Of a stretch of DNA of 44,980 nt, positions 2,633 to 19,311 are shown piece by piece. Where the stretch lies: assembly GCA_030625085.1 (NCBI GenBank), contig DAOURK010000020.1, positions 1-44,980 of the forward strand, in the 5' to 3' direction. The notes below the pieces were generated by a model. That model ran no database searches. It saw only the letters and a list, made by a program, of their open reading frames with translations, and was not told the origin of the DNA. The translations under genes and the position numbers were made by a program. The stretch comes from Pseudomonadota bacterium (GTDB taxonomy: Bacteria > SZUA-182 > DTGQ01). How positions within the stretch are numbered: the stretch's first letter is position 1; the number at the start of each line of letters is the position of its first letter.

Positions 2633-5600
2633 ATGGTAGAAGTAAACTTTAAAAAAATAGGACATATTTTAACGTTACTCTTGGCCATTATTTTGTTAGG
2701 TGCCGGTAAAAAATTCCTCATAGGGAATCCTTTACTGGGATGCGGAATACTACTCATTTTTTCCTTGATGTATATTCTTTTTGCCGGATTAATGTCTGCC
2801 GGGCTTTTCGTCTATCCGGCTACAATTTTATTTAGTATTTCTTATTTTCTTTTTTTCTTTAATAGTACTTATATACCACCGTTGCTTCCTCTATTGGCAG
2901 TCCCTTTGCTCTTTTCACTTATATTTTTGGCTCAAATAGTAAAAAAAGAATTATATTTTCGTCCCCTTATCCATTGCCAATATCTCATCGGTTTCTTTTT
3001 TCTGGGTTATATCTTATTTCAATGGGAAATATATTCCCTTCAATACCCATTGGCTGCCGCGATAACACTCTTTTTCTATGCCCTTCTTTATCATATGCGG
3101 TATAGACAGGTGCGAAAAAAATCCGGAATCATCAAAACACGATTTCATTATTTGTCCCTATTTTGTCTCTCTTTATCACTGCTTTTTTTATTATATGCCT
3201 TAAAGTCCTTAGCCACAGAATCTTACAGCTTATTTTTGATCATCATATTTATTATTTACATGGATATAGGAGTACACCTAACTCGCCGGGGAAAGGCAAA
3301 AGATGCTCTCCCCCTTTATATAATGGGCTTCATAGGACTGTTTCTCGCCCCATTATACGCTGTTCCCAATATTTCTCTCTTGGCGGTAATTCAGCTCATT
3401 TATTCCATCCATTTCTGGAAAATGTATCGGGTACATTCCACCATCACAACTCAATCCACTGATCAGTCGAGGATTCGGACAAATGCTCTCTTCTATAAAA
3501 TAATCATTCATATTCCCACACTGATCTTTCTTGGACTCTTTTGCTATCAAAAATTCCCTATAAACATTTTACATCTTATAGTGTCTTTGATTTACACTGC
3601 TTTATATTTAAAAATTGGTTGGAGCAGTGAACATGCCTGGAAAGGACGAAGTTTTTTAACCTATGCAGCAGGCTTATTTCTCAACATAGCCTTTTTTGAA
3701 GGATTTTTTCACCTTATCTCCATTCAGGAAATCAAATGGGAGCTCATTTACACTATCCTTCCTCTCTGGCTTTTCTTTTTCTTGGGCAACAGAGCCTACC
3801 GCAGAGGGAAAACAGTATTTGGAAAATCAATTTATGAAGGGCAATTTCTGACTCTATTGATTTCCTTTCTCATACTTTTCTCTAAAGTTCCCAGCGCCTT
3901 CTTTTTGAAATCCTTACTTCTGTTGGGTATTGGATATTTATTATTACAAATCATGTTTATGCTGACCACCGGTAAAAAAATTTTCCTCTATCCTATAGCC
4001 TTCATTCTTACTTTTCTCTATTACGGCTTGCTTTCGATAAATTTTCCCGGTACGGGTTGGATAAGCCTGGCCTTTTTGCCCTTAGGTATTCTTTCACTAT
4101 CAATGGCGCTCCGGCTGCATAAAAAAAATAAAGGATCTTCCCTATTCTATTTCTGGGGGATCATTGTAACCATTTTCTCTCTCTTTAGTATGCGACCTGA
4201 TTTTGCCCTTTCTCTTTATGCACTTTCAATCTGGGCTGCGCTTTATCTGCTTGTTTCTGTCTATACTTCCAAAACCATTTCCCAATTGCGATCCTTACTT
4301 ATGACTTTTGGGCATATCCTGGCTTTATCCAATGCAGCACTTCTGATTAACACCGGCAACATACCGGCAGGCATTTTTGCCGGTTTCCTTCTCACTATTT
4401 GCTATGCCCTTGTTTTCTCTAAAACCGGAAAAAGACGTTATCTTTACCCTGCTTCTCTGGCTTTTTCAGTAAGCTATATTCTTGTCTTCATCTCCGGCAA
4501 ACCATGGGAAATAATACATCTGTACAGCCTTCCCCTGCTCTTTATTTTGTATGGCGCAGGTCTTGGCTTTAAGCAATTCAGGCAAGGGATAAATCCACTA
4601 AAACATATAGGGCATCTTAATGCTCTCTTTCTTACCTTGATGGTCATCCTAAGCCATGGGGCTATTAACCACAAATTGGTTATTATTTCTATGCTTGCTT
4701 ATGCCCTGCTTTATTTAGCTTTAAGCAAAGCCTTTCCTGTTTATGATTTTATTTTTCTGGCTGCCGGCTTTGTTTCCTTAAGCTACTATTTTAGCTTATT
4801 TATGATTTCCTCTATCCCCTCAAGCCAAAGGGTCCTCTACTTTTTCTTCTCCGCTTTAGCGCTTTGCCTGATTGGGTATCTATGGAAGAAAAAAAGGGGA
4901 TTGGAAATTACCTGGCCTATCTTTGATGTGGCCTTAATTATAGCTCTTTTGTGCAGTGTAATTCCTTTAATTCGCGGAAATACCGGCATATCCCAGATTA
5001 TTCTCTTGATGGCGGCTATAATCTATCTTTTTATGGCCGCTCAGACAAAAAAAGATATGTATATTTATCTGACAACCCTTACTTTGGGACTTTTGGCTTA
5101 TCAATTTCTGGGCATGGCCCAACAAAAATTTACTCAAGACCTATTAGTCTATGTTCTTTACCTCATTCTTTCTTTGGGTATTTTCTTTTTTATTCCCTTT
5201 TTCAAAAGGCTCTTACAATATCAGGGACCCGGCTATCTTATGGCAACTACCAGTTGGAAGGCCGTAGTTTTTTACTCGCTGGGCATGGTGGCCTGTGGAG
5301 GAATACTACTTTCTGTATATTCTATAGAAATAGCCAATTACCCCGGGTTCTGTACTCAATGTCATTACATGAAACCCTATGCCGAGGCCTGGGAGCATTC
5401 CTCTCATAAAGACGTCAGTTGTGTTCTGTGCCATTATGAACCGGGAATTAAATCAACTGTTAAGGCTAAGATCAACGGCATGGTAACCGTGGTGAAATAT
5501 GTGACCGGCACGTACTCCACGAAACCCTCCTCAGAGGTCAGCGATATGGCTTGTTTACGTGAGGGATGCCATACAAAAGCCAACCTGAACAAGGAGATTA

Positions 5601-6709
5601 CTTTTTATAAAGATGTTAAATTTACCCATAAACATCATTTAGAAGAGCTGAGAAGGGGCAAAAAGCTTCGTTGCACATCGTGCCATTCCCAAATTGTGCA
5701 GGGAGCGCATATGAAGGTTACGCAAACGGTTTGCTTCACCTGCCATATGAAAGGAATAGAAAAAGAAGGTTTAGGAATAGGCAGATGTACAGTCTGTCAC
5801 ACTATCCCTACGAATTCGGTGTCTTATATGGGTATAGAGTTTGAACATCAGGAATTTCTGGAAAACAAGCCTGAATTACTGTGCCTGGACTGTCACTTTA
5901 ATGTGACTCAGGGAGATGCTCCGGTGCCTGAAGAGGGATGTTTTTCCTGTCATGTAGAAAAAAATAAAACCCGTGATCCAAAAATTCTTCACAATATCCA
6001 TATTACAGAGCATAAGGTGGAATGTTTTGAGTGTCATCTTGAGATTCAGCACGGGAATAAACCCTTGCCTCAAGAGGTAAAATTAAATTGCCAGGATTGC
6101 CATAATAAATCTCACAGGATCCCGGAAAAAATGTTTATGGGCATGGGAGCTGTCGATTTACCAGGAAGCCCGGACCCCATGTTCACCGCCAAGGTCTCCT
6201 GTAGAGGATGCCATAAATATCTGGAAAAGGTAGAAATCGGGGACATTTCTTTTATTACCACAAAAGCTAAAGCAAAAGCGTGCGATGACTGTCATGGTCA
6301 AGATGAAGGCTATGGAGAAATGATGGAAGAATGGCAATTAGCCACCAGGGAAACCCTGGCCGAAATTTCCTCGTTCAAAAAAGAATTGGACCAGCCACTC
6401 AATGAGATCAAGGATCAAATCAATAACCCGGTCTGGAAGGACCTGAAAGGATCTTATAACCGGGCCACGGCTAATCTTAAATTCGTCACGACCGACGGGA
6501 GCTTTGGGGTTCACAATAATGATTATACTGAACAAATTTTAGCCAAGATCCATACTGATTTAAAAAACTGTCTGGCTATTTTGAAAACCCAAAAAAAGTT
6601 TGAATTTTCTCAGCAAAAAAAGAAACCGAAAAGTCGTATTTCTGATCAATTAGTTTACCAGCAGCAGAAATACTCTTTTGATAATATAAGGTTAGAGGGG
6701 AAAAAATGA
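2633..6709 (+). CDS. Giant polytopic membrane protein fused to a 12-haem NapC/NrfH-like cytochrome
   Basis: The protein has 1358 residues. Residues 1 to about 880 are almost entirely hydrophobic segments broken by short basic loops, well over twenty predicted membrane helices, of a family I do not recognise. A last helix (about 880-900) leads into a periplasmic haem region like that of NapC/NrfH quinol dehydrogenases. Twelve haem motifs lie between about 907 and 1221: eleven CXXCH (first CTQCH, last CDDCH) and one CX4CH (CLREGCH, the third). The C-terminal 130 residues form a helical tail with GVHNNDY near 1292, shared with the cytochrome at 18289-19311. The next gene, hdrC, overlaps its stop as ATGA, so it is co-translated with the Hdr-Flx operon. 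Inference: it passes electrons between the membrane or quinone pool and periplasmic cytochromes on behalf of Hdr-Flx. The haem part is certain; function and the long membrane domain are open. Confidence 0.9.
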   Translation: MVEVNFKKIGHILTLLLAIILLGAGKKFLIGNPLLGCGILLIFSLMYILFAGLMSAGLFVYPATILFSISYFLFFFNSTYIPPLLPLLAVPLLFSLIFLAQIVKKELYFRPLIHCQYLIGFFFLGYILFQWEIYSLQYPLAAAITLFFYALLYHMRYRQVRKKSGIIKTRFHYLSLFCLSLSLLFLLYALKSLATESYSLFLIIIFIIYMDIGVHLTRRGKAKDALPLYIMGFIGLFLAPLYAVPNISLLAVIQLIYSIHFWKMYRVHSTITTQSTDQSRIRTNALFYKIIIHIPTLIFLGLFCYQKFPINILHLIVSLIYTALYLKIGWSSEHAWKGRSFLTYAAGLFLNIAFFEGFFHLISIQEIKWELIYTILPLWLFFFLGNRAYRRGKTVFGKSIYEGQFLTLLISFLILFSKVPSAFFLKSLLLLGIGYLLLQIMFMLTTGKKIFLYPIAFILTFLYYGLLSINFPGTGWISLAFLPLGILSLSMALRLHKKNKGSSLFYFWGIIVTIFSLFSMRPDFALSLYALSIWAALYLLVSVYTSKTISQLRSLLMTFGHILALSNAALLINTGNIPAGIFAGFLLTICYALVFSKTGKRRYLYPASLAFSVSYILVFISGKPWEIIHLYSLPLLFILYGAGLGFKQFRQGINPLKHIGHLNALFLTLMVILSHGAINHKLVIISMLAYALLYLALSKAFPVYDFIFLAAGFVSLSYYFSLFMISSIPSSQRVLYFFFSALALCLIGYLWKKKRGLEITWPIFDVALIIALLCSVIPLIRGNTGISQIILLMAAIIYLFMAAQTKKDMYIYLTTLTLGLLAYQFLGMAQQKFTQDLLVYVLYLILSLGIFFFIPFFKRLLQYQGPGYLMATTSWKAVVFYSLGMVACGGILLSVYSIEIANYPGFCTQCHYMKPYAEAWEHSSHKDVSCVLCHYEPGIKSTVKAKINGMVTVVKYVTGTYSTKPSSEVSDMACLREGCHTKANLNKEITFYKDVKFTHKHHLEELRRGKKLRCTSCHSQIVQGAHMKVTQTVCFTCHMKGIEKEGLGIGRCTVCHTIPTNSVSYMGIEFEHQEFLENKPELLCLDCHFNVTQGDAPVPEEGCFSCHVEKNKTRDPKILHNIHITEHKVECFECHLEIQHGNKPLPQEVKLNCQDCHNKSHRIPEKMFMGMGAVDLPGSPDPMFTAKVSCRGCHKYLEKVEIGDISFITTKAKAKACDDCHGQDEGYGEMMEEWQLATRETLAEISSFKKELDQPLNEIKDQINNPVWKDLKGSYNRATANLKFVTTDGSFGVHNNDYTEQILAKIHTDLKNCLAILKTQKKFEFSQQKKKPKSRISDQLVYQQQKYSFDNIRLEGKK

Positions 6710-7362
6710 AATACGAACTACCAAGAGAAAATGATCAGCAGCACTTTATGAGTATCATAGAAAAAATGAGCGGTCAAAATATCCGTTTATGTTATCAGTG
6801 TGGAAAATGTTCAGCCGGTTGCCCCATCTGCCATGAGATGGAAGATTCACCAAACCAAATAATACGGTATATTCAGCTCGGGTTAAAGGAGCAGGCCTTG
6901 TCGAAAAATACCATCTGGCTGTGCGCGTCCTGTCAGACCTGCTCAACCAGATGTCCTCAGCAGCTTGATCTGGCCAAGATCATGGATAGCCTTCGCATCC
7001 TTCATCAACAAGAGTCCTTACAACAAAATATTCCTTTTTCAACTTCTGCCAAAGACTTTGGCCATAGATTCTATAACTCCTTGTTAAATGGACTCCAGAT
7101 GGATGTGCGCTCCAACGTGAATGCCTTTTCAGATCTTTTTCTTAAAATGGTTCGCCATTACGGCCGTCAATTCGAGACCGGCTTAATTTATAACTACAAT
7201 GTGAACAGTGGCTTTCTTTTTAGTAATGTCCTCAAAGGACCTATGATGCTGATGAAAGCCAAAATCAACCTTATTCCTGAAGACGTAAAAAGAAGAGAAA
7301 AAGTGGAAAAAATTTTTTCTAAAATTGAACAGCTTGAAAAAAGTGAAAAGGAAAAAAGATGA
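6706..7362 (+). CDS. hdrC: HdrC-like ferredoxin subunit of heterodisulfide-reductase-type complex
   Basis: A 218-residue protein with two [4Fe-4S] ferredoxin motifs near the N-terminus, CYQCGKCSAGCP (about residues 26-37) and CASCQTCSTRCP (about 67-78), the layout of HdrC. The rest is a helical C-terminal region without cysteine clusters. HdrC relays electrons between HdrA and HdrB in the cytoplasm. Its ATG overlaps the stop of the membrane cytochrome gene and its own stop overlaps the hdrB start, both as ATGA, so the three genes are translationally coupled. The order C-B-A and the linked flx genes point to a bacterial HdrABC-Flx complex, not the methanogen enzyme that reduces CoM-S-S-CoB. 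The natural acceptor of HdrB is not shown by the sequence. Confidence 0.9.
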   Translation: MKYELPRENDQQHFMSIIEKMSGQNIRLCYQCGKCSAGCPICHEMEDSPNQIIRYIQLGLKEQALSKNTIWLCASCQTCSTRCPQQLDLAKIMDSLRILHQQESLQQNIPFSTSAKDFGHRFYNSLLNGLQMDVRSNVNAFSDLFLKMVRHYGRQFETGLIYNYNVNSGFLFSNVLKGPMMLMKAKINLIPEDVKRREKVEKIFSKIEQLEKSEKEKR

Positions 7363-8243
7363 AATATGCTTACTTTCCAGGGTGCTCTTTGCATTCTACA
7401 GCTAAAGAATTTGATTTATCAACCAGGGCAGTCTGTAAAAATCTGGATATAGAATTGGTGGAAATACCCGATTGGATTTGTTGCGGTTCCACACCAGCTC
7501 ACACAACAAGTGAACTTCTGTCTTTAGCCTTGCCTTTAGCTAATTGCACCTGGGCTGAAAATAATCACCTGGATGTGGTAGCTCCCTGCGCATCATGCTT
7601 CAGCCGTCTTAAGATAGCTACTCTGGAGGTCCAAAAAGACGCGGATTTGCGAAAAAAAATCAATACCATTATAGAGGGAAATTTTGAAGGAAACACCAAA
7701 ATTTTTCATTTGTTGCATCTTTTTAGCAACGGCAATGGAAGCGCCGAAAAATTAAAAGAAAAAACAAAGCGGGACCTTTCAACCCTGAAAGTAGTTGCTT
7801 ACTATGGGTGTCTTTTAGCCCGGCCAAAAGAAGTGGCCGGAGTGGTTGATGTTGAAAATCCGCAAAGTATGGATCGAATTTTAAACAAGGCAGGTCTTGA
7901 TGTCCTGGATTGGTCGCATAAAACCGAGTGTTGTGGGGCAAGTTTATCTATTACCGACAAAAAAGTATCTCTTCGCCTGGTTCATGAGATAATTCAAACA
8001 GCCGCAGATGCGGGAGCAGATTGCATAGCTGTGGCCTGCCCTTTATGTCAATCAAATCTGGACCTGCAACAGTCTGAACTTAAAAATAATCATGGCCATA
8101 AATATCATCTTCCTATTTTTTATTTTACCCAATTAATGGGCTTAGCTCTGGGGCTGGAAACAAACAAATTGGGACTCAAACGATTGATCGTTGATCCTCG
8201 GCCATTACTTAAAAATAAAAATATCATAGGCATAGAGGAGTAA
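7359..8243 (+). CDS. hdrB: HdrB-like subunit with two CCG cysteine domains
   Basis: A 294-residue protein that starts MKYAYFPGCSLHSTA, typical of HdrB. It has both cysteine-rich (CCG) domains: the first with GC, ICCGST and CASC, the second with YYGC, CCGAS and CPLC. In HdrB these bind two non-cubane [4Fe-4S] clusters that form the disulfide-reducing site. All the Cys positions appear intact, so a catalytic disulfide (or similar thiol substrate) reductase is expected. It overlaps hdrC by four bases and ends five bases before hdrA. In sulfate reducers with Flx-Hdr the proposed disulfide substrate is DsrC, but no dsrC lies in this window, so the substrate is unknown. Confidence 0.92.
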   Translation: MKYAYFPGCSLHSTAKEFDLSTRAVCKNLDIELVEIPDWICCGSTPAHTTSELLSLALPLANCTWAENNHLDVVAPCASCFSRLKIATLEVQKDADLRKKINTIIEGNFEGNTKIFHLLHLFSNGNGSAEKLKEKTKRDLSTLKVVAYYGCLLARPKEVAGVVDVENPQSMDRILNKAGLDVLDWSHKTECCGASLSITDKKVSLRLVHEIIQTAADAGADCIAVACPLCQSNLDLQQSELKNNHGHKYHLPIFYFTQLMGLALGLETNKLGLKRLIVDPRPLLKNKNIIGIEE

Positions 8244-8248
8244 GGGCG

Positions 8249-10231
8249 ATGGCACGGATTGGAGTATTCGTTTGCTGGTGTGGATCAAATATCGCTGAAA
8301 ATGTGGACGTTGTGGAAGTAGCCCGCTATGCAGCCACTCTACCTGGAGTCGTCCACTCAGTTGATTACAAATATATGTGCTCTGATCCGGGCCAAAAATT
8401 GATTACAGATGCTATCCGTACTCAACATCTTGATGGAGTGGTCGTAGCCGCCTGCTCTCCCAGAATGCATGAAGTAACCTACCGACGGACTGTTGCCACT
8501 GTGGGATTTAACCCCTATCTTTTTGAGATGGCCAATCTTCGGGAGCATTGCTCCTGGGTGCATGAAAATAAGGCTGAAGCCACCATCAAGGCCAAAAATT
8601 TGGTCCGGATGATGGTGGAAAAGGTCAAACAGAATCAACCCCTTTACCAAATACAAATCCCTGTCACCAAAAGGGCCTTGGTGATCGGCGGAGGAATTGC
8701 CGGCATCCAGGCTGCCTTGGATGTTGCTGCCGGCGGCTATGAGGTAATACTGTTAGAAAAAGATCCCTCCATTGGCGGGCATATGGCTCAATTGGATGAA
8801 ACGTTCCCTACTCTGGATTGCTCACAGTGCATCATGACCCCGCGTATGGTTGAAATTGTACAAAACCCGAATATAACGCTCTATTCCTATTCCGAGTTGG
8901 ATGCCCTGGAAGGGTATATCGGAAATTTTACAGCCAAGATCAGAAAAAAAGCCCGTTCGGTAGATATTACAAAATGCACTGGTTGCGGGGTGTGTCAGCA
9001 AAAATGCCCAGCCAAAGTGCCCAGTGAATTTGATGAGGGACTCAGCACGCGAGGAGCTATTTATGTTCCCTTCCCTCAAGCAGTGCCGAATAAACCGGTT
9101 ATTGACCGGGAACATTGTATCAAGTTTACAAAGGGAAAATGCGGCCTCTGCGAAAAAATTTGTCCTGCAGGCGCCATTGATTATAACCAACAGGATGAAA
9201 TAGTCGAGGAAAAGGTAGGAGCTGTAATCGTAGCTACAGGCTATGATCTTCTCCCCAAAGATACCTACGCAGAATACGGCTATGGGCAATATCCCGACGT
9301 TATTACTTCTCTTCAATTCGAACGCTTGGTGAGCGCCTCAGGCCCGACTAATGGGGAATTAAAAAGGCCCTCAGACGGCAAAATCCCACAAAAGATAGTC
9401 TTTATACAATGTGTCGGATCAAGAGACGCTTCTCAGGGAAGATCATACTGCTCAAAGATATGCTGTATGTATACAGCCAAACATACCATGCTCTATCGGC
9501 ATAAGGTCCCGAAAGGTGAAGCTTATGTATTTTATATGGATATTCGCGCAGGAGGAAAAAATTACGACGAATTCGTACGCAGGGCCATTGAAGAGGATAA
9601 AGCCGTCTATATCAGGGGCCGAGTATCTAAGATATATCTTCAGAATGGCCGGATGGTAGTCCGCGGAGCAGATACTCTAATAGGCGGACAGGTGGAAATC
9701 AAGGCCGATATGGTAGTTTTGGCTACAGCCATTACTGCCCCCAAAGGCATAGACAAATTTGCTCAAAAATTAGGGGTAGGCTATGACCTTCATCATTTTC
9801 TTTCAGAGGCCCATCCTAAGCTCCGTCCTGTAGAAACCAACAGCGCCGGCATTTACCTGGCCGGTGCCTGCCAGGCGCCTAAAGATATCCCTGAGGCGGT
9901 AGCCCAGGCAGGAGCAGCGGCCGGTAAGGTATTGGGATTGTTTGGAGGAAAAAACTTGTGCAGGGAACCCATAGTGGCCAAGGTCAATGAAAGCACCTGT
10001 ATTGGTTGCTTCATTTGTCAAAAGGCTTGCGCCTATGGGGCCATTGAAATGAAGGGGCTGAAAGATAGAAAAGGCAATGTGATTAAGGTGGTTGCTTCAG
10101 TGAATACCGGAAAATGCCAGGGTTGTGGGGCCTGTACGGCCACCTGTCGGTCAAATAGTATTGAACTGGAGGGATACAATGATCAACAGATTTATGCTCA
10201 AATAAATGCAATTGGTTTTACTAATGATTAA
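8249..10231 (+). CDS. hdrA: HdrA-like flavin-bifurcating subunit
   Basis: A 660-residue flavoprotein. The N-terminus has the HdrA signature IGVFVCWCGSNI; a Rossmann FAD motif GGGIAGIQAALD follows at about 145, then the active-site Cys region TLDCSQCIMTPRM. A central ferredoxin insert carries CTGCGVCQQKCP and CGLCEKICPAG, and the C-terminus has two more [4Fe-4S] motifs (CIGCFICQKAC and CQGCGACTATC). HdrA is where electrons from the Flx or Mvh partner are split between ferredoxin and HdrB. A start at 8249 is backed by GGAG and AAGGGCG just upstream. Length and domain order are those of the full-size bacterial HdrA. Only 45 bases separate it from the small gene at 10277. Confidence 0.95.
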   Translation: MARIGVFVCWCGSNIAENVDVVEVARYAATLPGVVHSVDYKYMCSDPGQKLITDAIRTQHLDGVVVAACSPRMHEVTYRRTVATVGFNPYLFEMANLREHCSWVHENKAEATIKAKNLVRMMVEKVKQNQPLYQIQIPVTKRALVIGGGIAGIQAALDVAAGGYEVILLEKDPSIGGHMAQLDETFPTLDCSQCIMTPRMVEIVQNPNITLYSYSELDALEGYIGNFTAKIRKKARSVDITKCTGCGVCQQKCPAKVPSEFDEGLSTRGAIYVPFPQAVPNKPVIDREHCIKFTKGKCGLCEKICPAGAIDYNQQDEIVEEKVGAVIVATGYDLLPKDTYAEYGYGQYPDVITSLQFERLVSASGPTNGELKRPSDGKIPQKIVFIQCVGSRDASQGRSYCSKICCMYTAKHTMLYRHKVPKGEAYVFYMDIRAGGKNYDEFVRRAIEEDKAVYIRGRVSKIYLQNGRMVVRGADTLIGGQVEIKADMVVLATAITAPKGIDKFAQKLGVGYDLHHFLSEAHPKLRPVETNSAGIYLAGACQAPKDIPEAVAQAGAAAGKVLGLFGGKNLCREPIVAKVNESTCIGCFICQKACAYGAIEMKGLKDRKGNVIKVVASVNTGKCQGCGACTATCRSNSIELEGYNDQQIYAQINAIGFTND

Positions 10232-10232
10232 G

Positions 10233-10551
10233 GGAACGACACCATAAAATCTTAACCCTTAGAAAGGAGAAACATTATGTGTTGGCAAGGTCAAGTAGCA
10301 GGTGATTTACTAACTCTTATACTTTTTCTTACGTGTATTATTATTATTATTCCCTTTTGGAAAATATTTGAAAGATCTGGTCATTCCGGATGGTGGAGTC
10401 TGACACAGATAGTCCCTGTTCTTAATATTTTTATCCTCTTCTTTCTGGCTTATACAAAATGGCCGGCAATGTCCAAATAGATTAATAATGGTTAGGATGA
10501 TGGTTATGACAGGATCATTTAATAAAAATCAGCAAAAAATGGTGTCGTTCC
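10233..10551. repeat. 13-bp perfect inverted repeat flanking the small gene in the hdr-flx operon
   Basis: GGAACGACACCAT at 10233-10245 is the exact reverse complement of ATGGTGTCGTTCC at 10539-10551. The pair brackets the small gene at 10277-10480. Either it is the footprint of an inserted cassette, or it forms a long-range hairpin in the operon transcript. Confidence 0.6.
10277..10480 (+). CDS. Small two-helix membrane protein
   Basis: A 67-residue protein with a good ribosome-binding site (AAAGGAG) before ATG. It has two hydrophobic helices (about residues 9-30 and 46-60) joined by a loop with RSGHSGWWSL. This resembles small membrane proteins with a K/R-x-G-x-xGW-x-x-xxP-xxN pattern (DUF5684/DUF805-like); that assignment is tentative. 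It sits between hdrA and flxD, is not part of known Hdr-Flx operons, and lies inside a 13-bp inverted repeat, so it may be an insertion. If it is functional, a membrane tether for the soluble complex is conceivable but unproven. Confidence 0.65.
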   Translation: MCWQGQVAGDLLTLILFLTCIIIIIPFWKIFERSGHSGWWSLTQIVPVLNIFILFFLAYTKWPAMSK

Positions 10552-10584
10552 AAATTTATATGGTAAAACTTTCGTAAAAAAATT

Positions 10585-10605
10585 ACTCCCCCCTGATGGG
10601 GGAGT
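10585..10605. repeat. Strong G+C hairpin upstream of flxD
   Basis: ACTCCCCC at 10585-10592 pairs with GGGGGAGT at 10598-10605 around a 5-base loop. The core resembles that of the palindromic elements at 21854 and 40941. It is not followed by a T-run, so I do not call it a terminator, but it could affect transcription between hdrCBA and flxDCBA. Confidence 0.6.
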
Positions 10606-10704
10606 TTGGTTGAAATGATATGAGAAGGGGGGAATATTAAACAACGAGTGGTTAACAAAAGATTGGTTAGCGAGATTGTTAGATAAAGAACAGGAGAAAA
10701 AAAT

Positions 10705-11181
10705 ATGAGTCTTCCCAGTGAGGTTATAGAAGAGAATAAAAACGAAATAAAAAAGGACTGGCAACCAAAGGTGATTGCCTTCCTGTGCAACTGGTGCTCT
10801 TATGCCGGAGCTGATCTGGCAGGAACCAGTCGCTTGCGATACGATAGCCATATTGAGATCATCCGGGTACCCTGCTCAGGACGAATGGACCCTTTATTCA
10901 TTCTCAAATGTTTGGAAAAGGGAGCAGATGGGATCCTTGTCTCCGGCTGTCATCCGGGAGATTGCCATTATGCAACCGGCAATTACTATGCCCGAAGAAA
11001 ATTTGCCACCTTTAGAAAACTATTGGAATTTTGCGGCTTTGATTTAAGAAGAATTCATTTCTCCTGGGTTTCAGCGGCCGAAGGAGCTAAATGGTCTAAA
11101 GTGGTAAATGAAGTGATAAGTCAGGTGCGGGAAGCAGGACCAATTGCTAATATGTATTCACGGAGGGAAAACCAACTATGA
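10705..11181 (+). CDS. flxD: FlxD / MvhD-like [2Fe-2S] subunit
   Basis: A 158-residue member of the MvhD/FlxD family. The conserved features are CNWCSYAGADLAGTSRL near residue 31, RVPCSGR and VSGCHPGDCHY. In methanogens MvhD passes electrons from the hydrogenase to HdrA; in bacteria with Flx the same subunit links the NAD(H)-binding FlxA module to HdrA. No NiFe-hydrogenase genes are present, and flxA is, so the Flx role fits. AGGAG lies 8 bases before the ATG. The stop overlaps the next gene as ATGA. About 220 non-coding bases with a strong hairpin separate it from the preceding small gene. Confidence 0.92.
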   Translation: MSLPSEVIEENKNEIKKDWQPKVIAFLCNWCSYAGADLAGTSRLRYDSHIEIIRVPCSGRMDPLFILKCLEKGADGILVSGCHPGDCHYATGNYYARRKFATFRKLLEFCGFDLRRIHFSWVSAAEGAKWSKVVNEVISQVREAGPIANMYSRRENQL

Positions 11182-12092
11182 TAACCTTATTGCAGGCTAA
11201 AACCTGGGAGCTATTGCAGCAAAAGGAAGTTTCCCTCATTCTTGGATACGGCGAATTTTCTCGAAAAATAAATAATGGCCCTGAGCAACGGATTATTTCC
11301 CCAATATTTATTACTAAGCCGGAAGAAACAAGTTCTTTGGTTTGGAACGATCGTTGTGTCTTTAATCTTTCAACCTATCTTACAGGAAAAGAAGTTAAAG
11401 CCCATCACAAAGTAGCCATTATGGCAAAGGGCTGCGATATTAAATCGATTTGCGTTTTAATACAAGAAAATCAAATCAAAAGGGAAGACTTAATCATTAT
11501 TGGCCTGACGTGCCAAGGTGTAATTGGTGACAAAGAACGGCCGAAAGCAGAAAAATGTGATTCTTGTCAACTGAAAACTCCTCATATATATGATATTTTA
11601 ATTGATTCGGCTGAAGCGCAGACAAAAAAATTAAACCAGGTCGAAAAAAAGGTTGAAAGCAAAAATTGCGTCAACCCTGTGCAGGAAAAATTTGACCGGA
11701 TGGATAAGATGAATCCGCAAGACAGATGGCAATACTGTCTGGATCAATTCAGTAAATGCATAAGATGTTATGCTTGTCGGCAGGTTTGCCCTCTTTGCTA
11801 TTGCGAAAAATGTATCACCGACAAAAGCACCCCTCAATGGATTGAAAAAAGCCCTTTATTACCGGGGAATCTCTCCTTTCACATTATGAGAGCCTTTCAC
11901 TTAACAGGCAGATGCGTCGATTGTGGGGAATGTGAAAGGGCATGTCCAATGAACCTGCCATTAACAACACTCAATAAAAAAATGGCCCAGGTAGTTAAGG
12001 ACATGTATCATTATGAATCGGGTCTAAAAACAGATGAAGAGCCACTATTTGGCAGTTTCCAATTAGAGGACGAAGAATCTTTTATTAAATAA
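11178..12092 (+). CDS. flxC: FlxC-like iron-sulfur protein
   Basis: A 304-residue protein. The N-terminal half, with KGCDIKSICVLIQEN and GLTCQG, resembles the N-terminal domain of coenzyme F420 hydrogenase beta/FrhB-type proteins. A CDSCQLKTP motif follows at about 132. The C-terminal part has ferredoxin motifs CIRCYACRQVCPLCYC (about residue 195) and CVDCGECERACPM (about 247). It lies between flxD and flxB and is therefore named FlxC by position and Fe-S content; these proteins carry electrons within the Flx part of the complex. It overlaps flxD by four bases, with GGAGGG upstream. Family membership is secure; the exact symbol is less so. Confidence 0.82.
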   Translation: MITLLQAKTWELLQQKEVSLILGYGEFSRKINNGPEQRIISPIFITKPEETSSLVWNDRCVFNLSTYLTGKEVKAHHKVAIMAKGCDIKSICVLIQENQIKREDLIIIGLTCQGVIGDKERPKAEKCDSCQLKTPHIYDILIDSAEAQTKKLNQVEKKVESKNCVNPVQEKFDRMDKMNPQDRWQYCLDQFSKCIRCYACRQVCPLCYCEKCITDKSTPQWIEKSPLLPGNLSFHIMRAFHLTGRCVDCGECERACPMNLPLTTLNKKMAQVVKDMYHYESGLKTDEEPLFGSFQLEDEESFIK

Positions 12093-12121
12093 ATTCAAAA
12101 CCAATAAAGGTGTTGAGAAAA

Positions 12122-13186
12122 ATGATGACGAAGCTCATTAGCCGGGATAATCTAAAAAAGCTCATATCCAAAGTTTTAACCAGTTTTCAGGTAATTGCTC
12201 CTGTAAATGAAAATAATGTCTCATTTTTTAAACGAATCTCTGTTTATGAGCAAATTAAATGGGAGGATAACAATCCTACTAAATCTCCCAAGGAATTTTT
12301 CTTTGCTCCTTCTGATGATCTTTTTCGATATCAGATGAAAAACAAAAACATTCTCCTTCGTGAGCCTTCAAACCATCATGATCAAAGGATTATTTTAGGA
12401 ATTCGCCCGTGCGACATGGCCGCTTTAAATATTCTGGACCGGGTTTTCTTAGAAGATGGCAAGGATTTGCTTTATTCCGCCCTTCGAGACAATACCCTCC
12501 TGATCGGCCAATCGTGCCGGACGCCTGGTAAATATTGTTTCTGTTCCTCGGTTGGGATAAATCCTGATGACAGCCAAAATATGGACCTTATGTTGACTGA
12601 TATCGAAAAAAATCTATTTTTGGTAAAGGTCGTAAGTGAAAAAGGGGAAAAATTCTTCTCACATTTTTCAAGCTTTTTTCAAGAAGCTGATGCAACCAAC
12701 GGACATACGCCGGTTCAAACAAAAGAAATGGTCGATTATCTAAAACGAGGGGCCCTCTTTAATGTTCAAAACATTAATGAATGGCTGAATGAAAATTTTG
12801 AGCACCCTATCTGGTCAGAGATAGCCGCCAAATGTATTGGCTGTGGTGTTTGTACCTTTTTTTGCCCCACCTGCCATTGTTTTGATATCAGCGACGAAAA
12901 TGTTGTCTATCGAGACAGCAGTTTTCAAGGGGTAAGGAGGCGAATTTGGGATTCTTGCTCATTCGATCATTTCACAAAAATGCCTATGCACCAACCCCGG
13001 CCTACTCAGGATAGAAGATTTCGGCAAAGAATTATGCACAAATTTAAATATTTTATTGACCGATTTCAACAAGGGGCCTGCGTTGGATGCGGCCGATGCC
13101 GTAGCCTTTGTCCGGTGGGAATTGACATTATTGAGGTTTTAGAGAGAATTCATTGTTTAAGTTATCAATCGCATGGGGTCAAGTAG
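12122..13186 (+). CDS. flxB: FlxB-like iron-sulfur protein (AsrA/HydB-like)
   Basis: About 354 residues, related to anaerobic sulfite reductase subunit A and hydrogenase beta proteins. The central motif GIRPCDMAALNILDRVF and the downstream CRTPGKYCFCSS are typical. Two ferredoxin motifs close the protein: CIGCGVCTFFCPTCHCFD (about residue 239) and CVGCGRCRSLCPVGIDI (about 320). FlxB passes electrons between the flavin of FlxA and the rest of the complex. The ATG at 12122 is preferred over the GTG at 12110, which overlaps the only upstream AAAGG. It is followed three bases later by flxA. Confidence 0.87.
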   Translation: MMTKLISRDNLKKLISKVLTSFQVIAPVNENNVSFFKRISVYEQIKWEDNNPTKSPKEFFFAPSDDLFRYQMKNKNILLREPSNHHDQRIILGIRPCDMAALNILDRVFLEDGKDLLYSALRDNTLLIGQSCRTPGKYCFCSSVGINPDDSQNMDLMLTDIEKNLFLVKVVSEKGEKFFSHFSSFFQEADATNGHTPVQTKEMVDYLKRGALFNVQNINEWLNENFEHPIWSEIAAKCIGCGVCTFFCPTCHCFDISDENVVYRDSSFQGVRRRIWDSCSFDHFTKMPMHQPRPTQDRRFRQRIMHKFKYFIDRFQQGACVGCGRCRSLCPVGIDIIEVLERIHCLSYQSHGVK

Positions 13187-13188
13187 TT

Positions 13189-14022
13189 ATGGAAAACATT
13201 TATCAACCGCATATTATGATTATTGATGATATCACTGTGGAGACGCCTGATGTAAAAACCTTCAGGCTGAAATTTCAAGATTCCAAATTGGAGTCTGATT
13301 TCACTTTTAAAGCAGGGCAATTTGGTCAATATTCACTCTTTGGTGAAGGAGAAGCCACCTTTTGCATTGCCTCTTCTCCTACTCGAAAAGGCTATATTGA
13401 ATGTACAGTAAAAAGGGCAGGCAAAGTTACCAATGCCATGCACAAACTCGATGTTGGAGATCCCATCGGTTTTCGGGGACCTTATGGTAATTGGTTTCCC
13501 ATTGATCAATTAAAAGGCAAAGACCTTATCTTTATCGGCGGGGGGATCGGTCTGGCTCCTCTCAGATCTTTAATCCGGAACTGCCTTGATTTGCGAGAAG
13601 ATTTTGGTAAGATCACCATCTTGTATGGGTCAAGGAGTGTAGCTGATCTGGTCTATAAGCAGGAACTCAAAGAATGGGAAAACAGAGGGGATATTAACCT
13701 CATTCAAACAGTAGACCCTGGAGGAGAAGATTCTGATTGGAAAGGTCTTACTGGTTTTGTGCCTTTGGTCATGAGGGACATTTATCTATCATCTGACAAT
13801 TCTGTAGCTCTTACCTGCGGCCCCCCTATTATGATCAAATTTGTTATCCAGGGTCTTGATTCCATGGGGTTTTCCCCTACCCAAATCATTACCACCCTGG
13901 AAATGAAAATGAAATGCGGTTTGGGAAAATGTGGCCGATGTAATATTGGCAAATATTATGTTTGTAAAGACGGACCAGTTTTTACTTATGCTCAGATTTA
14001 TGAATTGCCGAATGAATTTTAA
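13189..14022 (+). CDS. flxA: FlxA-like FAD/NAD(P)-binding reductase
   Basis: A 277-residue ferredoxin-NADP-reductase-type protein, close to AsrB and HydG. The FAD-binding barrel includes FKAGQFGQYSLFG and RGPYGNWFP; the nucleotide-binding part has FIGGGIGLAPLRSLI; and the C-terminus has CGLGKCGRCNIGKYYVC for a [2Fe-2S] cluster. In FlxABCD-HdrABC this is the subunit that exchanges hydride with NAD(H). The ATG at 13189, three bases after the flxB stop with GGGG upstream, is a better start than the upstream TTG inside flxB. It is the last gene of the Hdr-Flx run; about 130 bases separate it from the response regulator. Confidence 0.92.
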   Translation: MENIYQPHIMIIDDITVETPDVKTFRLKFQDSKLESDFTFKAGQFGQYSLFGEGEATFCIASSPTRKGYIECTVKRAGKVTNAMHKLDVGDPIGFRGPYGNWFPIDQLKGKDLIFIGGGIGLAPLRSLIRNCLDLREDFGKITILYGSRSVADLVYKQELKEWENRGDINLIQTVDPGGEDSDWKGLTGFVPLVMRDIYLSSDNSVALTCGPPIMIKFVIQGLDSMGFSPTQIITTLEMKMKCGLGKCGRCNIGKYYVCKDGPVFTYAQIYELPNEF

Positions 14023-14152: not shown

Positions 14153-14551
14153 ATGGCTGAGATAGGAAATCATAAAATTTTGATTATAGACGATGATGTG
14201 GATTTAGTTGAAGCCAACAAAATTGTTTTGGAAGCAAACTCTTATACTGTTTTTACCGCACATAGCGGACAAGAAGGCATGGCCAAATTCAAGAAAGTTA
14301 TACCGGATCTAGTCATTCTCGATGTTTCCATGGAAAGAAGGGATGAAGGGTTTTATGTTTCCCAAAAAATCAGAAGCTGCCCGGAGATAGGCCAAATTCC
14401 AATTATTATGATTACCGCTATTCATCAATCAACGAAATTTCGCTTTTCTCCTGATACTGATGAAAATTATCTGCCGGTAACCGAAATGGTGGATAAGCCG
14501 GTAAACCCTTCAACACTGGTTCAATTGGTGGATAAATGGCTGAAAAAATAA
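14153..14551 (+). CDS. Single-domain response regulator (receiver only)
   Basis: A 132-residue CheY-like receiver. Acidic residues DDDVD (about 13-17), the phosphoacceptor Asp in LVILDVSM (about 56), the Thr of IIMITAI and the Lys of MVDKPVNP are all present, so it should be phosphorylatable. There is no output domain. A consensus AAGGAGG precedes the ATG. It overlaps the start of the c-haem kinase by 16 bases, so kinase and receiver are coupled in expression and the kinase is the likely phosphodonor. It may relay phosphate to a regulator elsewhere or act by protein binding. Confidence 0.9.
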   Translation: MAEIGNHKILIIDDDVDLVEANKIVLEANSYTVFTAHSGQEGMAKFKKVIPDLVILDVSMERRDEGFYVSQKIRSCPEIGQIPIIMITAIHQSTKFRFSPDTDENYLPVTEMVDKPVNPSTLVQLVDKWLKK

Positions 14552-16170
14552 AAAATGCCAAAAGGGGTTTTGGATATCAAACGATCCAAAAATTTAAACG
14601 TTGTCTCGCCGCTAAAATGATTTTTTGGATCAGTGCGGTGACCATGCTCACTTTGACAGGTTATTTGTATATTCATCTCCAGGATACTCAAGAGCATTTT
14701 AATATGCTGATCAAAGATGAGGCTTATCTGGCCAGTGATATCATCAAAAGGAGTATTAGACAAGAGATGTTGCTTGACGCCAGAGTGGATCTTCAACAAA
14801 CAGTCAATGATATCACCGGTAATGACGAAATTATAAAAATCAGGCTTATCGAAGAAGGTATAATAAAAATCGCCTCTGATAAACATGAAATAGGTCAAGT
14901 CATTGATAAAAAAGCTGAAGCCTGTAATGATTGTCATAAGCCAAACCAACAGCCCAAATTTACCAATGATAGAAATTACAGGATATTCAATGATGCTGAT
15001 GGAAAATTAGTTGTTGGCATGGTAACTCCTATTTATAATGAGAAAGAGTGTTACCACTGCCATGGAGAAGATAATAAGATCCTTGGAGTACTGGATGTGA
15101 TTATTTCTCTGGAGAGGGTGCAGGCTTACATTCATACTGATAAAAACAGAGCAGTATTATTCCTGATATTCACGTTTATTCTGCTTTCGACAACCGTAGG
15201 CCTCCTCATCCGGTATTTTATAGCCCATCCTATTCGTAAACTCATCGAGGGAACAACCATGATCACCGCCGGTAATCTGGACCATCAAATTCCCATTGAA
15301 CCTAAGGATGAAATCGGAGATCTGGCCAGGTCTTTTAATGTAATGAGTTTGAGGCTAAAAACATCCAGACAGGAGATAGAAAACTGGAATAAGGAACTGG
15401 AAGGCAGGGTAAAATTGGCTACCGCTCAATCGGCCTCAGCCAATAAGGAACTGGAGATAGCCAATGAAAAACTGAAGGAAAGCGACAAGAAAAAGTCAGA
15501 GATTGTAATGGTCGTAGCTCACGATATTCGTGCACCTCTGGCAGCCATTAAAAGCTGCCTTCAAGTTGTTCTGCAGGGATATCTTAAAAATGACCCACTC
15601 AAAGAAAAAGAAATGCTTCAGCGGGTAGAAGCCAGGATAGAGGATCAATTAACCTTTGTTAAAAACCTTCTGGATTTTTCACGCATAGCTGAAAGCTGTG
15701 GAGAGATGCTTCCTACTGATCTCCATAAGATAATCCGGAAGGTGTCTGATTTAATGTCAGACTTGGCCAAAACGAAAAAAATGTCGATTAAAGTCCTGGA
15801 AAAAGAGAAACACTTGCCAATATTGGCAGATGAGGATTTATTGGTTCGCGCCTTGACCAACTTGGTTAACAACGCAATTAAGTATAATCCTGAAGGCAGC
15901 AAAATCTGGATTGACAGCCAAAGCTCCAATGGAAATATTAATATAGCAATTAAAGATAACGGAATCGGTATACCTCAAGATGAAGTTCCAAATATCTTTG
16001 AGGTCATGTTTCGCGGTCGGAATGCTAAAAGGCAAAAAGAACATGGCGCAGGTCTTGGCTTATCTATCGTGAAGCAGGTGGTTGAGATTCATCAGGGCAA
16101 GATCCGGGTAGAAAGTAAGGAAAAAGAGGGAACGAGTTTTTTTATTTCATTGCCTCGGGCTAAAAATTAA
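14536..16170 (+). CDS. c-haem sensor histidine kinase (first of two paralogues)
   Basis: A 544-residue membrane sensor kinase. A first helix near residues 28-48 and a second near 205-230 enclose a periplasmic domain with two haem c motifs, CNDCH (about 130) and CYHCH (about 172), the second followed by LGVLDVIISL. Then come HAMP (about 230-285), a coiled coil, the phosphoacceptor HisKA site VVAHDIRAPLAAIKS (His near 328) and an intact ATPase domain (NLVNNAIKY, DNGIGIPQDE, GAGLGLSIV). The haem motifs suggest sensing of periplasmic redox state or a haem ligand such as NO or O2. It overlaps the receiver gene upstream. A close paralogue follows at 16581-18203. Domain calls are firm; the signal is inference. 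Confidence 0.92.
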   Translation: MAEKIKNAKRGFGYQTIQKFKRCLAAKMIFWISAVTMLTLTGYLYIHLQDTQEHFNMLIKDEAYLASDIIKRSIRQEMLLDARVDLQQTVNDITGNDEIIKIRLIEEGIIKIASDKHEIGQVIDKKAEACNDCHKPNQQPKFTNDRNYRIFNDADGKLVVGMVTPIYNEKECYHCHGEDNKILGVLDVIISLERVQAYIHTDKNRAVLFLIFTFILLSTTVGLLIRYFIAHPIRKLIEGTTMITAGNLDHQIPIEPKDEIGDLARSFNVMSLRLKTSRQEIENWNKELEGRVKLATAQSASANKELEIANEKLKESDKKKSEIVMVVAHDIRAPLAAIKSCLQVVLQGYLKNDPLKEKEMLQRVEARIEDQLTFVKNLLDFSRIAESCGEMLPTDLHKIIRKVSDLMSDLAKTKKMSIKVLEKEKHLPILADEDLLVRALTNLVNNAIKYNPEGSKIWIDSQSSNGNINIAIKDNGIGIPQDEVPNIFEVMFRGRNAKRQKEHGAGLGLSIVKQVVEIHQGKIRVESKEKEGTSFFISLPRAKN

Positions 16171-16222
16171 TTTCAATAGCAAGGGTAAGATATGATCTCC
16201 CAGCAGAAAGTGATGAGAAATT

Positions 16223-16579
16223 ATGCGAACAACAACTAAAAGGCAAGTTAAAAAAGAAATTCAAAACAAATTAAAAAGATGTAATTTTTGCTCTGAAATA
16301 GTTCTGGCAGAAGCAAAAAAATGTAAACACTGTGGAGAGTTCCTTGATCCAAAATTAAGGACCTCGCCCTTACCCGAACAAAAATGGAACCCTGTGACAG
16401 TGGCGCTCTTTTCATTATTAGTTCCCGGCGGGGGCCACATCTATAGAGGCAAACCGGTAAAGGGATTTTTATGGCTGATTTTTGTTGCTGTAGGGTATAG
16501 GTTTTATTTATTCCCGGGAATATTTTTGCACCTCATATCTATTATTTTTGCTCTTATCGGAAATCAAACTAAGGAATAA
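16223..16579 (+). CDS. Zinc-ribbon small membrane protein
   Basis: A 118-residue protein with an N-terminal zinc ribbon (CNFCSEIVLAEAKKCKHCGE) of the type found in bacterial double-zinc-ribbon or UPF0547-like proteins, then two or three hydrophobic segments with VPGGGHIYRGKPVKGFLW, reminiscent of TM2-like or DUF5683 membrane proteins. It lies between the two c-haem kinases and its stop is one base before the likely start of the second. The role is unknown. The ribosome-binding site is weak. Confidence 0.75.
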   Translation: MRTTTKRQVKKEIQNKLKRCNFCSEIVLAEAKKCKHCGEFLDPKLRTSPLPEQKWNPVTVALFSLLVPGGGHIYRGKPVKGFLWLIFVAVGYRFYLFPGIFLHLISIIFALIGNQTKE

Positions 16580-16580
16580 A

Positions 16581-18203
16581 TTGAAAAAAGAAAAGACAGG
16601 CCACTTTAAGTCTCTTCTTCTGAGACAAAACCTGAGCTTTAAGATCATATTCTATATTGGCATCCTCTTGGTGCTGGCCATTTTAATCTCTTTTTATCTT
16701 ATTAATGAGGCTCATGAAAAAGAGCTTATTAATCTTACCAAGCTTCAAACACAACGCTTAACAGACACGATTAAAACCAGTATTCGGCAAGACATGATAA
16801 ACCACGGAAGCCATAATAAAATCCAAACGCTTCTGGAAGTTATCGGAAATAGAGATGATATTATTAAAATCTCTATTTGGGATCGAGGCAATATAAAGGC
16901 ATCTTCATGGAGAGAAGATGTGGGGAGAAAATGTAAAAAGGATGATAAAGACTGCGCTTTATGTCATTATTCAGACGTGCGCCCGCCATTGACTGTCCTT
17001 AACCGCATCTATAAAGATCAAGGAAAACGTTTTTTAACGCTCTTTAATCCAATAAATAATGAACCATTATGTTACCGGTGTCACGCAAAGGAAAAGGAAA
17101 TGCTCGGCGTCTTAAAAATTGTCACTTCCCTTTCCCGAATGGATAAGTCAATCGTGGCAAGAAAAAAATATGTGATTATTTCTACGATCGTTATTTTCCT
17201 TTTGGTCTCTTTAGAGATTTTCTATTTTATTTATCGTTTTGTTCATTGCCCTATCCAAAAATTGACCTTAGCAACAAAAAGGGTTTCTGATGGTGATGTG
17301 GATTATCATATTAATGTTTCAAGCGCTGATGAGATTGGAGAATTGGCCAGCTCTTTCAATAGTATGACTAAAAAATTAAAAAAATCCTGGTCGGAAATAG
17401 AGGCCTGGAATCACGAATTGGAAAAAAGGGTTGAGGTGGCAACCGCTCAATTAAAAAAGGCAAATCAGGATCTGCTGAATAGCAATCAACGTCTCCAGGT
17501 TGCCGACCAGAAAAAAACCGACATATTAGTAACTGTGGCTCATGATATACGGGGACCGCTGGCAGCAATAAAAAGCTGCACAGATGTTGTTCTCGGGGGA
17601 TATATTAGTAATGATCAAAAAAAGCAAACCGATATGCTTCAACGGGTTGAACAAAGAGCCCGAGAACTCTTGAGGTTCACAAACGACTTGTTGGACCTGT
17701 CACTCATTGAGGAATCATGGCAGGAAAAAGAGGATATTAATTGTGCAAGGCTGCTCAATACAATTATTCAGGATCTTAAAAATAAAGCCGATGAAAAACA
17801 AATATCCTTAAATTGCCAAGTAACTGATAAAGCTATTTTAATTAAAGGTGATAAAAAGCTCTTTTCAAAGGTATTTTTCTATATCATTGAAAATGCCATT
17901 AAATACAGTCAGCCGAAAGGTAAGGTATATATTGAGCTTTTTCGCCAGCAGGGGACCCTTTTATTTAAAGTAAAGGATGAAGGCATTGGCATACCGGAAA
18001 AAGAGCTGCCGTGTATTTTTGAACCTACCTTCCGCGGAGAAATCGCCAGAAATCACGACCAGGCAGGTACAGGCGTCAGTATGGCCCTTGTTGAAAAGAT
18101 TATAAATTTATATAAAGGCAAGATTTCTATTAAAAGTGTGGTGAAAAAAGGAACTATAGTAGAAATTTCCCTTAGTTCCTCAGTTGAGGCAATGCTTTGC
18201 TAG
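16581..18203 (+). CDS. c-haem sensor histidine kinase (second paralogue)
   Basis: About 540 residues with the same layout as the kinase at 14536: a membrane helix, periplasmic motifs CALCH and CYRCH (the latter followed by LGVLKIVTSL), a second helix, HAMP, coiled coil, HisKA with VAHDIRGPLAAIKSC, and an ATPase domain (IIENAIKYS, DEGIGIPEKE). The end is more diverged: GTGVSMALV replaces the usual GLGL box. The TTG at 16581 is chosen as start because AAGGA lies just before it and it directly follows the upstream stop; a TTG at 16548 would overlap that gene. No receiver gene follows, so it may share the receiver at 14153. Probably a tandem duplication that diverged. Confidence 0.9.
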   Translation: MKKEKTGHFKSLLLRQNLSFKIIFYIGILLVLAILISFYLINEAHEKELINLTKLQTQRLTDTIKTSIRQDMINHGSHNKIQTLLEVIGNRDDIIKISIWDRGNIKASSWREDVGRKCKKDDKDCALCHYSDVRPPLTVLNRIYKDQGKRFLTLFNPINNEPLCYRCHAKEKEMLGVLKIVTSLSRMDKSIVARKKYVIISTIVIFLLVSLEIFYFIYRFVHCPIQKLTLATKRVSDGDVDYHINVSSADEIGELASSFNSMTKKLKKSWSEIEAWNHELEKRVEVATAQLKKANQDLLNSNQRLQVADQKKTDILVTVAHDIRGPLAAIKSCTDVVLGGYISNDQKKQTDMLQRVEQRARELLRFTNDLLDLSLIEESWQEKEDINCARLLNTIIQDLKNKADEKQISLNCQVTDKAILIKGDKKLFSKVFFYIIENAIKYSQPKGKVYIELFRQQGTLLFKVKDEGIGIPEKELPCIFEPTFRGEIARNHDQAGTGVSMALVEKIINLYKGKISIKSVVKKGTIVEISLSSSVEAMLC

Positions 18204-18288: not shown

Positions 18289-19311
18289 CTAATCCCTGCC
18301 GGGTAAATTTTTAAGGGAAAAAATAATCTGCTCAGCTTTTTCTTTTGAAATTTGGAGCAGTTTCCAAACATAATCAGGATGATGGACCCCTCTGCTGGAA
18401 TCCTTCTTGATGAATTGATAATTTTCCGTGGCTTCAACATAAAATCTATGGTTCTTTTCATAAAAGGTTTTGTTATTCATACTCTTATTTGATTCATAGT
18501 GTGCAAATATTCTATCAAGTTGCCTAAGTGTAGCTTCTAACTCTTCAAGGGCTACACTTACTTTTGTCTGAAGCTGTTCTGCCTGATCAAAGATATCCTC
18601 ATCATGGCAGGAAGAACACGTCTCAAGGTCCGGCGTACAAGCATTGATATGACAGTCTGCGCATAAATAATCATCACCATGGCAGGAGAAAATATTATCC
18701 ATGCCAATACCTTTAAGCATTTTATCCTGGTAGATATGACACATTCCACAATCATCTTTTGGAGCAGTCTTGCCGTCATGGCAATTGAAACAAGCATGTT
18801 GCATATTTGGTGATTCCCGAAGATCTTCATCCCATCCATGGGCAATACGATCGTGGCATGAGGTACAGTAAAATCCCTTCTCTGCATGGAACTTATGATC
18901 AACCCTGATCTTAAGATCAACCTCCAAATCATTCACATAGTGACATTCGGATTTTGTGCAATACACAGGTTTTTTACCCTTGTCCACCTCCAGATAATGA
19001 TCGGTGATCTGACCGCTGATATGGTAATAGATAGATGCAAGCCCCCCAACCTTGGCCTTAATATATCCCCATGCTCCTTCTTCAGCATGACAAGCCATAC
19101 AACTATCAATTTCGCTTAGAATAGGACCGTGTTTAGAAGCCATCCAGGTATCATGAGCCTGATTCATCTCGTGGCATCCCTTACAAAAAGAATAACGCTT
19201 TGTATATTCAAACATTCCATAAGCGCCGCTTATAACGAACATGAGCAGGATACTAGCCCAAAGATAAATATAAAAAGATTTTATTTTGAAAATTTTCACC
19301 TGATGTACCAA
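18289..19311 (-). CDS. Membrane-anchored octahaem cytochrome, NapC/NrfH-like
   Basis: About 340 residues. One N-terminal helix (about 13-34) anchors a periplasmic domain that begins with the NapC/NrfH-type RYSFCKGCHEM. Haem motifs: CKGCH, CMACH, CTKSECH (a CX4CH), CTSCH, CFNCH, CGMCH, CADCH and CSSCH. The order of the first four, the CX4CH at the third place, and a C-terminal helical tail with RGVHHPDY match the cytochrome part of the 1358-residue protein at 2633, so the two are homologous. The start is unclear: TTG at 19311 or GTG at 19299, neither with a good ribosome-binding site. It converges on the second c-haem kinase. The likely role is quinol oxidation or electron transfer to other periplasmic cytochromes. 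Confidence 0.88.
   Translation of the reverse strand: MVHQVKIFKIKSFYIYLWASILLMFVISGAYGMFEYTKRYSFCKGCHEMNQAHDTWMASKHGPILSEIDSCMACHAEEGAWGYIKAKVGGLASIYYHISGQITDHYLEVDKGKKPVYCTKSECHYVNDLEVDLKIRVDHKFHAEKGFYCTSCHDRIAHGWDEDLRESPNMQHACFNCHDGKTAPKDDCGMCHIYQDKMLKGIGMDNIFSCHGDDYLCADCHINACTPDLETCSSCHDEDIFDQAEQLQTKVSVALEELEATLRQLDRIFAHYESNKSMNNKTFYEKNHRFYVEATENYQFIKKDSSRGVHHPDYVWKLLQISKEKAEQIIFSLKNLPGRD

Follow-up and report, generated by a model that had tools for sequence, protein, structure and literature searches.

We identified an operon that joins an intact HdrABC-Flx complex to a giant membrane and multihaem protein, a pairing so far found in one bacterial order only. Flavin-based bifurcation, cytoplasmic so far in the Hdr-Flx form, is thereby linked in one conserved operon to a respiratory multihaem protein. 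Should the two work together, electrons from NADH could go to ferredoxin and to an outer cytochrome network alike, without complex I being involved; this matters for understanding how uncultured anaerobes live. The analysed window is one whole contig of 44,980 bases from genome G000 (uncultured bacterium; 4.94 Mb in 247 contigs). The class of G000 was represented by nine genomes, G000 included, and the wider sample by 386 genomes. G001 and G003 form a sister genus inside the family of G000, and G004 (Zod_Metabat.896, JAFGSM010000145) belongs to another family of the same order. Gene content, order and conservation, as well as the domain anatomy, topology signal and haem motifs of the giant protein, were read directly from the sequences.

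Operon layout and Hdr-Flx subunits

Eight genes lie on one strand between positions 2633 and 14022 and code, in this order, for the 1358-residue giant protein, HdrC, HdrB, HdrA, MvhD/FlxD, FlxC, FlxB and FlxA (Table 1). The giant gene (2633-6709) has an ATGA in common with hdrC, and hdrC overlaps hdrB by 4 bases; the gene set, order, strand and both overlaps given in the initial annotation are thus borne out by the open reading frames and family matches. A two-component pair follows flxA, and the conserved block reaches its response regulator (14153) and haem-binding histidine kinase (14536). The order from the giant gene to the histidine kinase is identical in G004. Since the whole operon recurs in that genome, with a giant protein 40% identical to the one in the window, the pairing of giant and Hdr-Flx is not due to chance. 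The kinase is one of two similar histidine kinases in tandem (14536-18203; 544 and 551 residues), both of which match the Mcp40H-20 chemoreceptor sensor domain, the first having two CxxCH motifs.

Table 1. Features of the operon and its surroundings, in window positions.
Feature	Position	Strand	Evidence or remark
Giant protein, residues 1-870: about 32 predicted transmembrane helices, short loops, N-terminus inside, without Pfam family	2633..5242	+	AF2 model, K+R count
NapC/NirT-type anchor helix, residues 877-895	5261..5317	+	Pfam, NrfH model, hydropathy
Twelve haem c motifs	5351..6295	+	CxxCH at residues 907, 930, 1014, 1034, 1052, 1084, 1103, 1131, 1153, 1190, 1217; CX4CH at 974
C-terminal helical tail with GVHNxxY motif	6296..6706	+	Common to stand-alone 12-haem relatives; absent in G001, G003
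hdrC, two 4Fe-4S motifs	6706..7362	+	TIGR03290 E 7e-19; PDB 8rvv_C E 2e-16
HdrC insertion, 25 residues (110-134)	7033..7107	+	HdrC alignment; in G000 and G004, absent from G005, G006, G007, G008
hdrB, both CCG motifs	7359..8243	+	Pfam CCG E 1.6e-25; 5odc_B E 5e-40
hdrA, bifurcation-type; N-terminal, inserted and C-terminal Fe-S cysteines all present	8249..10231	+	HdrA2 797 bits; 5odc_A E 2e-217
Putative insertion between hdrA and mvhD	10232..10704	+	67-residue ORF 10277-10480, 13-bp inverted repeats, hairpin 10585-10605
flxD/mvhD	10705..11181	+	Pfam FlpD E 2.4e-50
flxC; C-terminal half like F420 formate dehydrogenase beta subunits	11178..12092	+	7bkb_E E 2e-28
flxB, HydB/AsrA-like	12110..13186	+	ShyB E 1e-54; 9nez_B E 1e-45
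flxA, FAD/NAD(P)-binding	13153..14022	+	NAD_binding_1, FAD_binding_6; 9nez_C E 7.5e-65
Response regulator and histidine kinase with two CxxCH motifs	14153..16170	+	Adjoin flxA also in G004, G003

The cytoplasmic part is predicted to be an intact HdrCBA-FlxDCBA, every subunit of which matches characterised families. The alignment of HdrA with its methanogen counterpart (5odc_A) is full-length, the cluster cysteines are kept, and both the flavin domain and the Fe-S clusters are predicted to be present. Translation of flxA could instead begin at an in-frame ATG at 13189. The FlxABCD-HdrABC complex known from Desulfovibrio and other anaerobes consists of the same seven subunits, whose flavin and Fe-S motifs are intact here. 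That known form is soluble and DsrC-linked, whereas here a membrane and 12-haem gene leads the operon and DsrC (PF04358) is absent from all nine class genomes, the E. coli control being positive. The partner known from Desulfovibrio is therefore missing from the class genomes examined, DsrC as disulfide partner being a trait of the Desulfovibrio form and not of all HdrABC-Flx. A second Hdr-Flx operon, with a 1479-residue HdrA-containing protein, is found elsewhere in G000 (contig G000:C60, L060:3955-12307), and similar ones in G001 and G003.

HdrC carries an insertion that occurs only in the two giant-linked operons and that may keep the soluble Hdr-Flx close to the membrane or to the giant protein. 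Amphipathicity of the insertion, suggestive at most (1% and 10% of shuffles), was set aside. HdrB scores 181 bits against the model of menaquinol-linked SdhE and 182 bits against the HdrB model (178 and 160 bits for the G004 protein); SdhE-likeness was ruled out as a special trait of the operon HdrB because class relatives without the giant score nearly the same.

The 473-base gap between hdrA and flxD contains an open reading frame with a membrane-like product, a perfect inverted repeat (10233-10245/10539-10551) and a GC-rich hairpin. It looks like a lineage-specific insertion, since G004 and G003 have a much shorter junction (at most about 110 and about 44 bases, respectively, both figures depending on the mvhD start codon). 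A multi-copy mobile element was ruled out, as the gap sequence is present in a single copy in the genome. If the transcript is broken anywhere, this gap is a more likely place than the stretch from 6709 to 8249.

Anatomy and topology of the giant protein

An anchor helix followed by a multihaem domain is the trait of NapC/NirT quinol dehydrogenases, and it is present in the giant protein with about 32 further helices upstream. The Pfam NapC/NirT match covers residues 875-1022 (E 1.5e-6; NrfH model E 1.2e-9), and cytochrome c7 (Cytochrome_C7) and cytochrome c3 are matched as well. The initial annotation was right to count 12 haem motifs, of which 11 are CxxCH and one is CX4CH (CLREGCH, residues 974-980). 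The CX4CH motif is kept in all 15 sequences aligned, and across the giants and most stand-alone relatives. With NapC/NirT/NrfH proteins the giant has the anchor helix and first haem motifs in common, and with the stand-alone relatives of several phyla all 12 haem motifs and the GVHN tail; it differs from both by 32 extra transmembrane helices in front. AF2 modelled the haem part poorly (pLDDT 59); the weak fold matches of this model to OcwA and NrfA, which cover part of the chain, were discarded.

The model of the giant contains 33 helices, and lysine plus arginine residues are distributed 43:12 between inside and outside; the odd helix number and this ratio place the C-terminus and the haems in the periplasm. 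The longest cytoplasmic loop measures 31 residues. No Pfam family matches the membrane domain even at E 10, and Foldseek with the AF2 model of this part (pLDDT 74) returned soluble helical repeats alone, none below 1e-3, and no PDB fold match. The domain may be a helical repeat array, judging from the model. A BLAST self-search found no internal repeats in the membrane part; compare with this the split homologue of G215, which matches its partner twice. Single histidines are kept in the membrane part (H11 and H661 in five giants, H260 in four), and no conserved pair fit for haem b was found there; nor is any Fe-S or haem b relay across the membrane visible in the giant. The initial annotation saw in the giant an arm belonging to the complex that could move electrons through the membrane. 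Given the short cytoplasmic loops and the lack of a conserved haem b histidine pair, such a direct wire appears unlikely. The 32-helix domain, which is large and so far undescribed, is rare: it occurs in 6 of the 386 genomes sampled and recurs in three small phyla.

The window also holds a second NapC/NirT multihaem protein on the minus strand (18289-21416), adjoining an ArrB/DsrO-like ferredoxin and a 301-residue protein without family, and a 489-residue protein with eight CxxCH motifs (230-1699), divergent from the giant.

Distribution and history

A contig search of the sampled genomes with the single giant protein as query gave no match; with an alignment as query, the same search returned G004, G001 and four cytochrome-only relatives. 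In total, four full-length giant homologues were identified, two beside hdrC (G000, G004) and two not (G001, G003), so the expectation that the giant always adjoins hdrC did not hold. The giants of G001 and G003 stand alone beside a sodium:sulfate-type symporter and have 10 CxxCH motifs, without the last haem and the tail. Split homologues from two other phyla are likewise not beside hdr: in G215 the genes for proteins of 549 and 758 residues follow an FrhB-like gene and the gene of a cytochrome that has nine CxxCH motifs, and in G056 the split versions are shorter, one such pair lying near TPR genes. Several phyla have the 12-haem part alone, as a free-standing cytochrome whose gene lies close to other multihaem genes and not to hdr.

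Conversely, hdrC-hdrB are found without a giant alongside in G005, G006, G007 and G008, followed by hdrA and flx in the first three; a giant beside them can be excluded in G005 and G007 from the length of the sequence upstream of hdrC, which in G006 and G008 is too short for this. In G003 (contig G003:C30, L059:7054-14527) the block from hdrA through mvhD and flxCBA to the response regulator and histidine kinase is kept without hdrC, hdrB and the giant. The giant of this genome sits elsewhere, shortened, and the best HdrB elsewhere in G003 is only 34% identical.

Trees of the giant, HdrA, FlxC and FlxB track genome taxonomy in that G000 and G003 are neighbours and G004 branches outside them; support in the giant trees is moderate, and FlxA is without resolution. 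The stem of the sister-genus giants measures 1.5-1.7 changes per column. The HdrA branch is 0.42 in G003, which lacks HdrCB in the operon, versus 0.05 in G000, whereas the FlxC branches are not so contrasted (0.31 versus 0.39). In the simplest account of these trees, the giant would have joined the operon before the split of the two families, been displaced in the sister genus and then changed fast.

Proposed menaquinone coupling and alternative readings

No NuoH was detected in either operon genome (G000, G004), and NuoH is present in G001 and G003, where the giant lies apart from hdr. The genomes are 93-96% complete, which makes such gene absences soft; moreover, because the linkage is seen in two genomes only, the absence of NuoH could go back to a single event, and so could the HdrC insertion. 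Menaquinone genes are of the MqnA/MqnD type in G000 and include MenD in G004, and RnfD/NqrB-family genes occur in all nine class genomes.

Our best explanation, to which we give close to an even chance, is that the operon is vertically inherited, order-specific and respiratory, and that Hdr-Flx and the giant are coupled mainly via menaquinone. More specifically, FlxA would take NAD(P)H, probably NADH, and FlxC, FlxB and MvhD would relay the electrons to the HdrA flavin, which would split them between ferredoxin and an HdrC-HdrB branch. Electrons leaving Hdr-Flx would reach menaquinone either via HdrB or via ferredoxin and another membrane complex. The giant would be a fusion in which the 32-helix domain is followed by a quinol:haem c oxidoreductase of the NapC/NirT type, its 12 haems lying in the periplasm; it would oxidise menaquinol and pass the electrons to periplasmic cytochromes, and NADH would thereby enter the cytochrome network in genomes without complex I. 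The short cytoplasmic loops and missing haem b ligand pair lead us to consider, with moderate confidence, that a menaquinone-mediated link, with possible docking besides, is a better reading than a direct membrane wire. The persistence of the giant in G001 and G003 without the operon's hdrCB speaks against the menaquinone reading, and so does the 32-helix domain, whose role quinol oxidation does not account for.

A link between the giant and Hdr-Flx is partly supported by the conservation in G004, by the HdrC insertion and by the absence of hdrCB from the G003 operon with the giant elsewhere and shortened. The same observations, together with the ATGA overlap of giant and hdrC, the long branch of the G003 giant and the longer branch of the remaining HdrA in that genome, can be read as traces of one stable membrane-bound complex in which HdrC is docked on the giant and electrons flow straight into the latter from HdrABC-Flx. 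We infer that Hdr-Flx and the giant may be in physical contact; as a full account, the stable complex is unlikely given cytoplasmic loops of at most 31 residues, the lack of a visible relay through the membrane and the existence of giant homologues without hdr. These free-standing homologues would also fit shared regulation only, with two independent respiratory units placed under the response regulator and haem histidine kinase 3' of flxA, a pair that stays beside flxA in G000, G004 and G003, also in an operon that lacks the giant. More than common control is suggested by the HdrC insertion and by the G003 operon, from which hdrCB and giant are missing together, and we regard mere co-regulation as unlikely. 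It is quite improbable that the operon encodes an NADH:quinone/cytochrome respiratory complex of a new kind, in which a bifurcating HdrABC-Flx, docked by its specialised HdrC on the 33-helix, 12-haem protein, would replace complex I and NADH oxidation would power ferredoxin reduction as well as electron transfer to the outside.

It is very unlikely that electrons run the other way, drawn from outside by the periplasmic haems for the complex to make NADH and ferredoxin; the usual reaction of NapC/NrfH relatives, quinol oxidation, speaks against this. HdrABC reactions are nevertheless reversible in principle (discussed in PMC9012536), and the HdrA/haem c/CCG complex of HotSeep-1 has been read as inward (PMC10553843).

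The initial annotation knew of no described complex with this make-up, and our search agrees: Hdr-Flx joined to a multihaem or NapC protein was not found in the open-licence literature searched, an absence that is not proof of novelty. In QmoABC and HdrDE an HdrC-like Fe-S protein is linked to the membrane and either to quinone or to methanophenazine, with a haem b membrane domain; the HdrC-like protein is common to the operon described here, and the haem b domain is not visible in it. The nearest described system is that of HotSeep-1, in which HdrA occurs, as here, together with haem c, in a complex with a haem c/CCG-domain protein that was proposed to link cytochrome c and cytoplasmic carriers (PMC10553843). 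There the CCG domain lies on the haem protein; the operon described here has HdrB and HdrC as separate proteins, includes Flx and has the giant membrane protein as its haem protein.

Further along the window, positions 26005-28416 encode an 803-residue fusion of a cNMP-binding domain, acetate kinase and a PduL-type phosphotransacylase.
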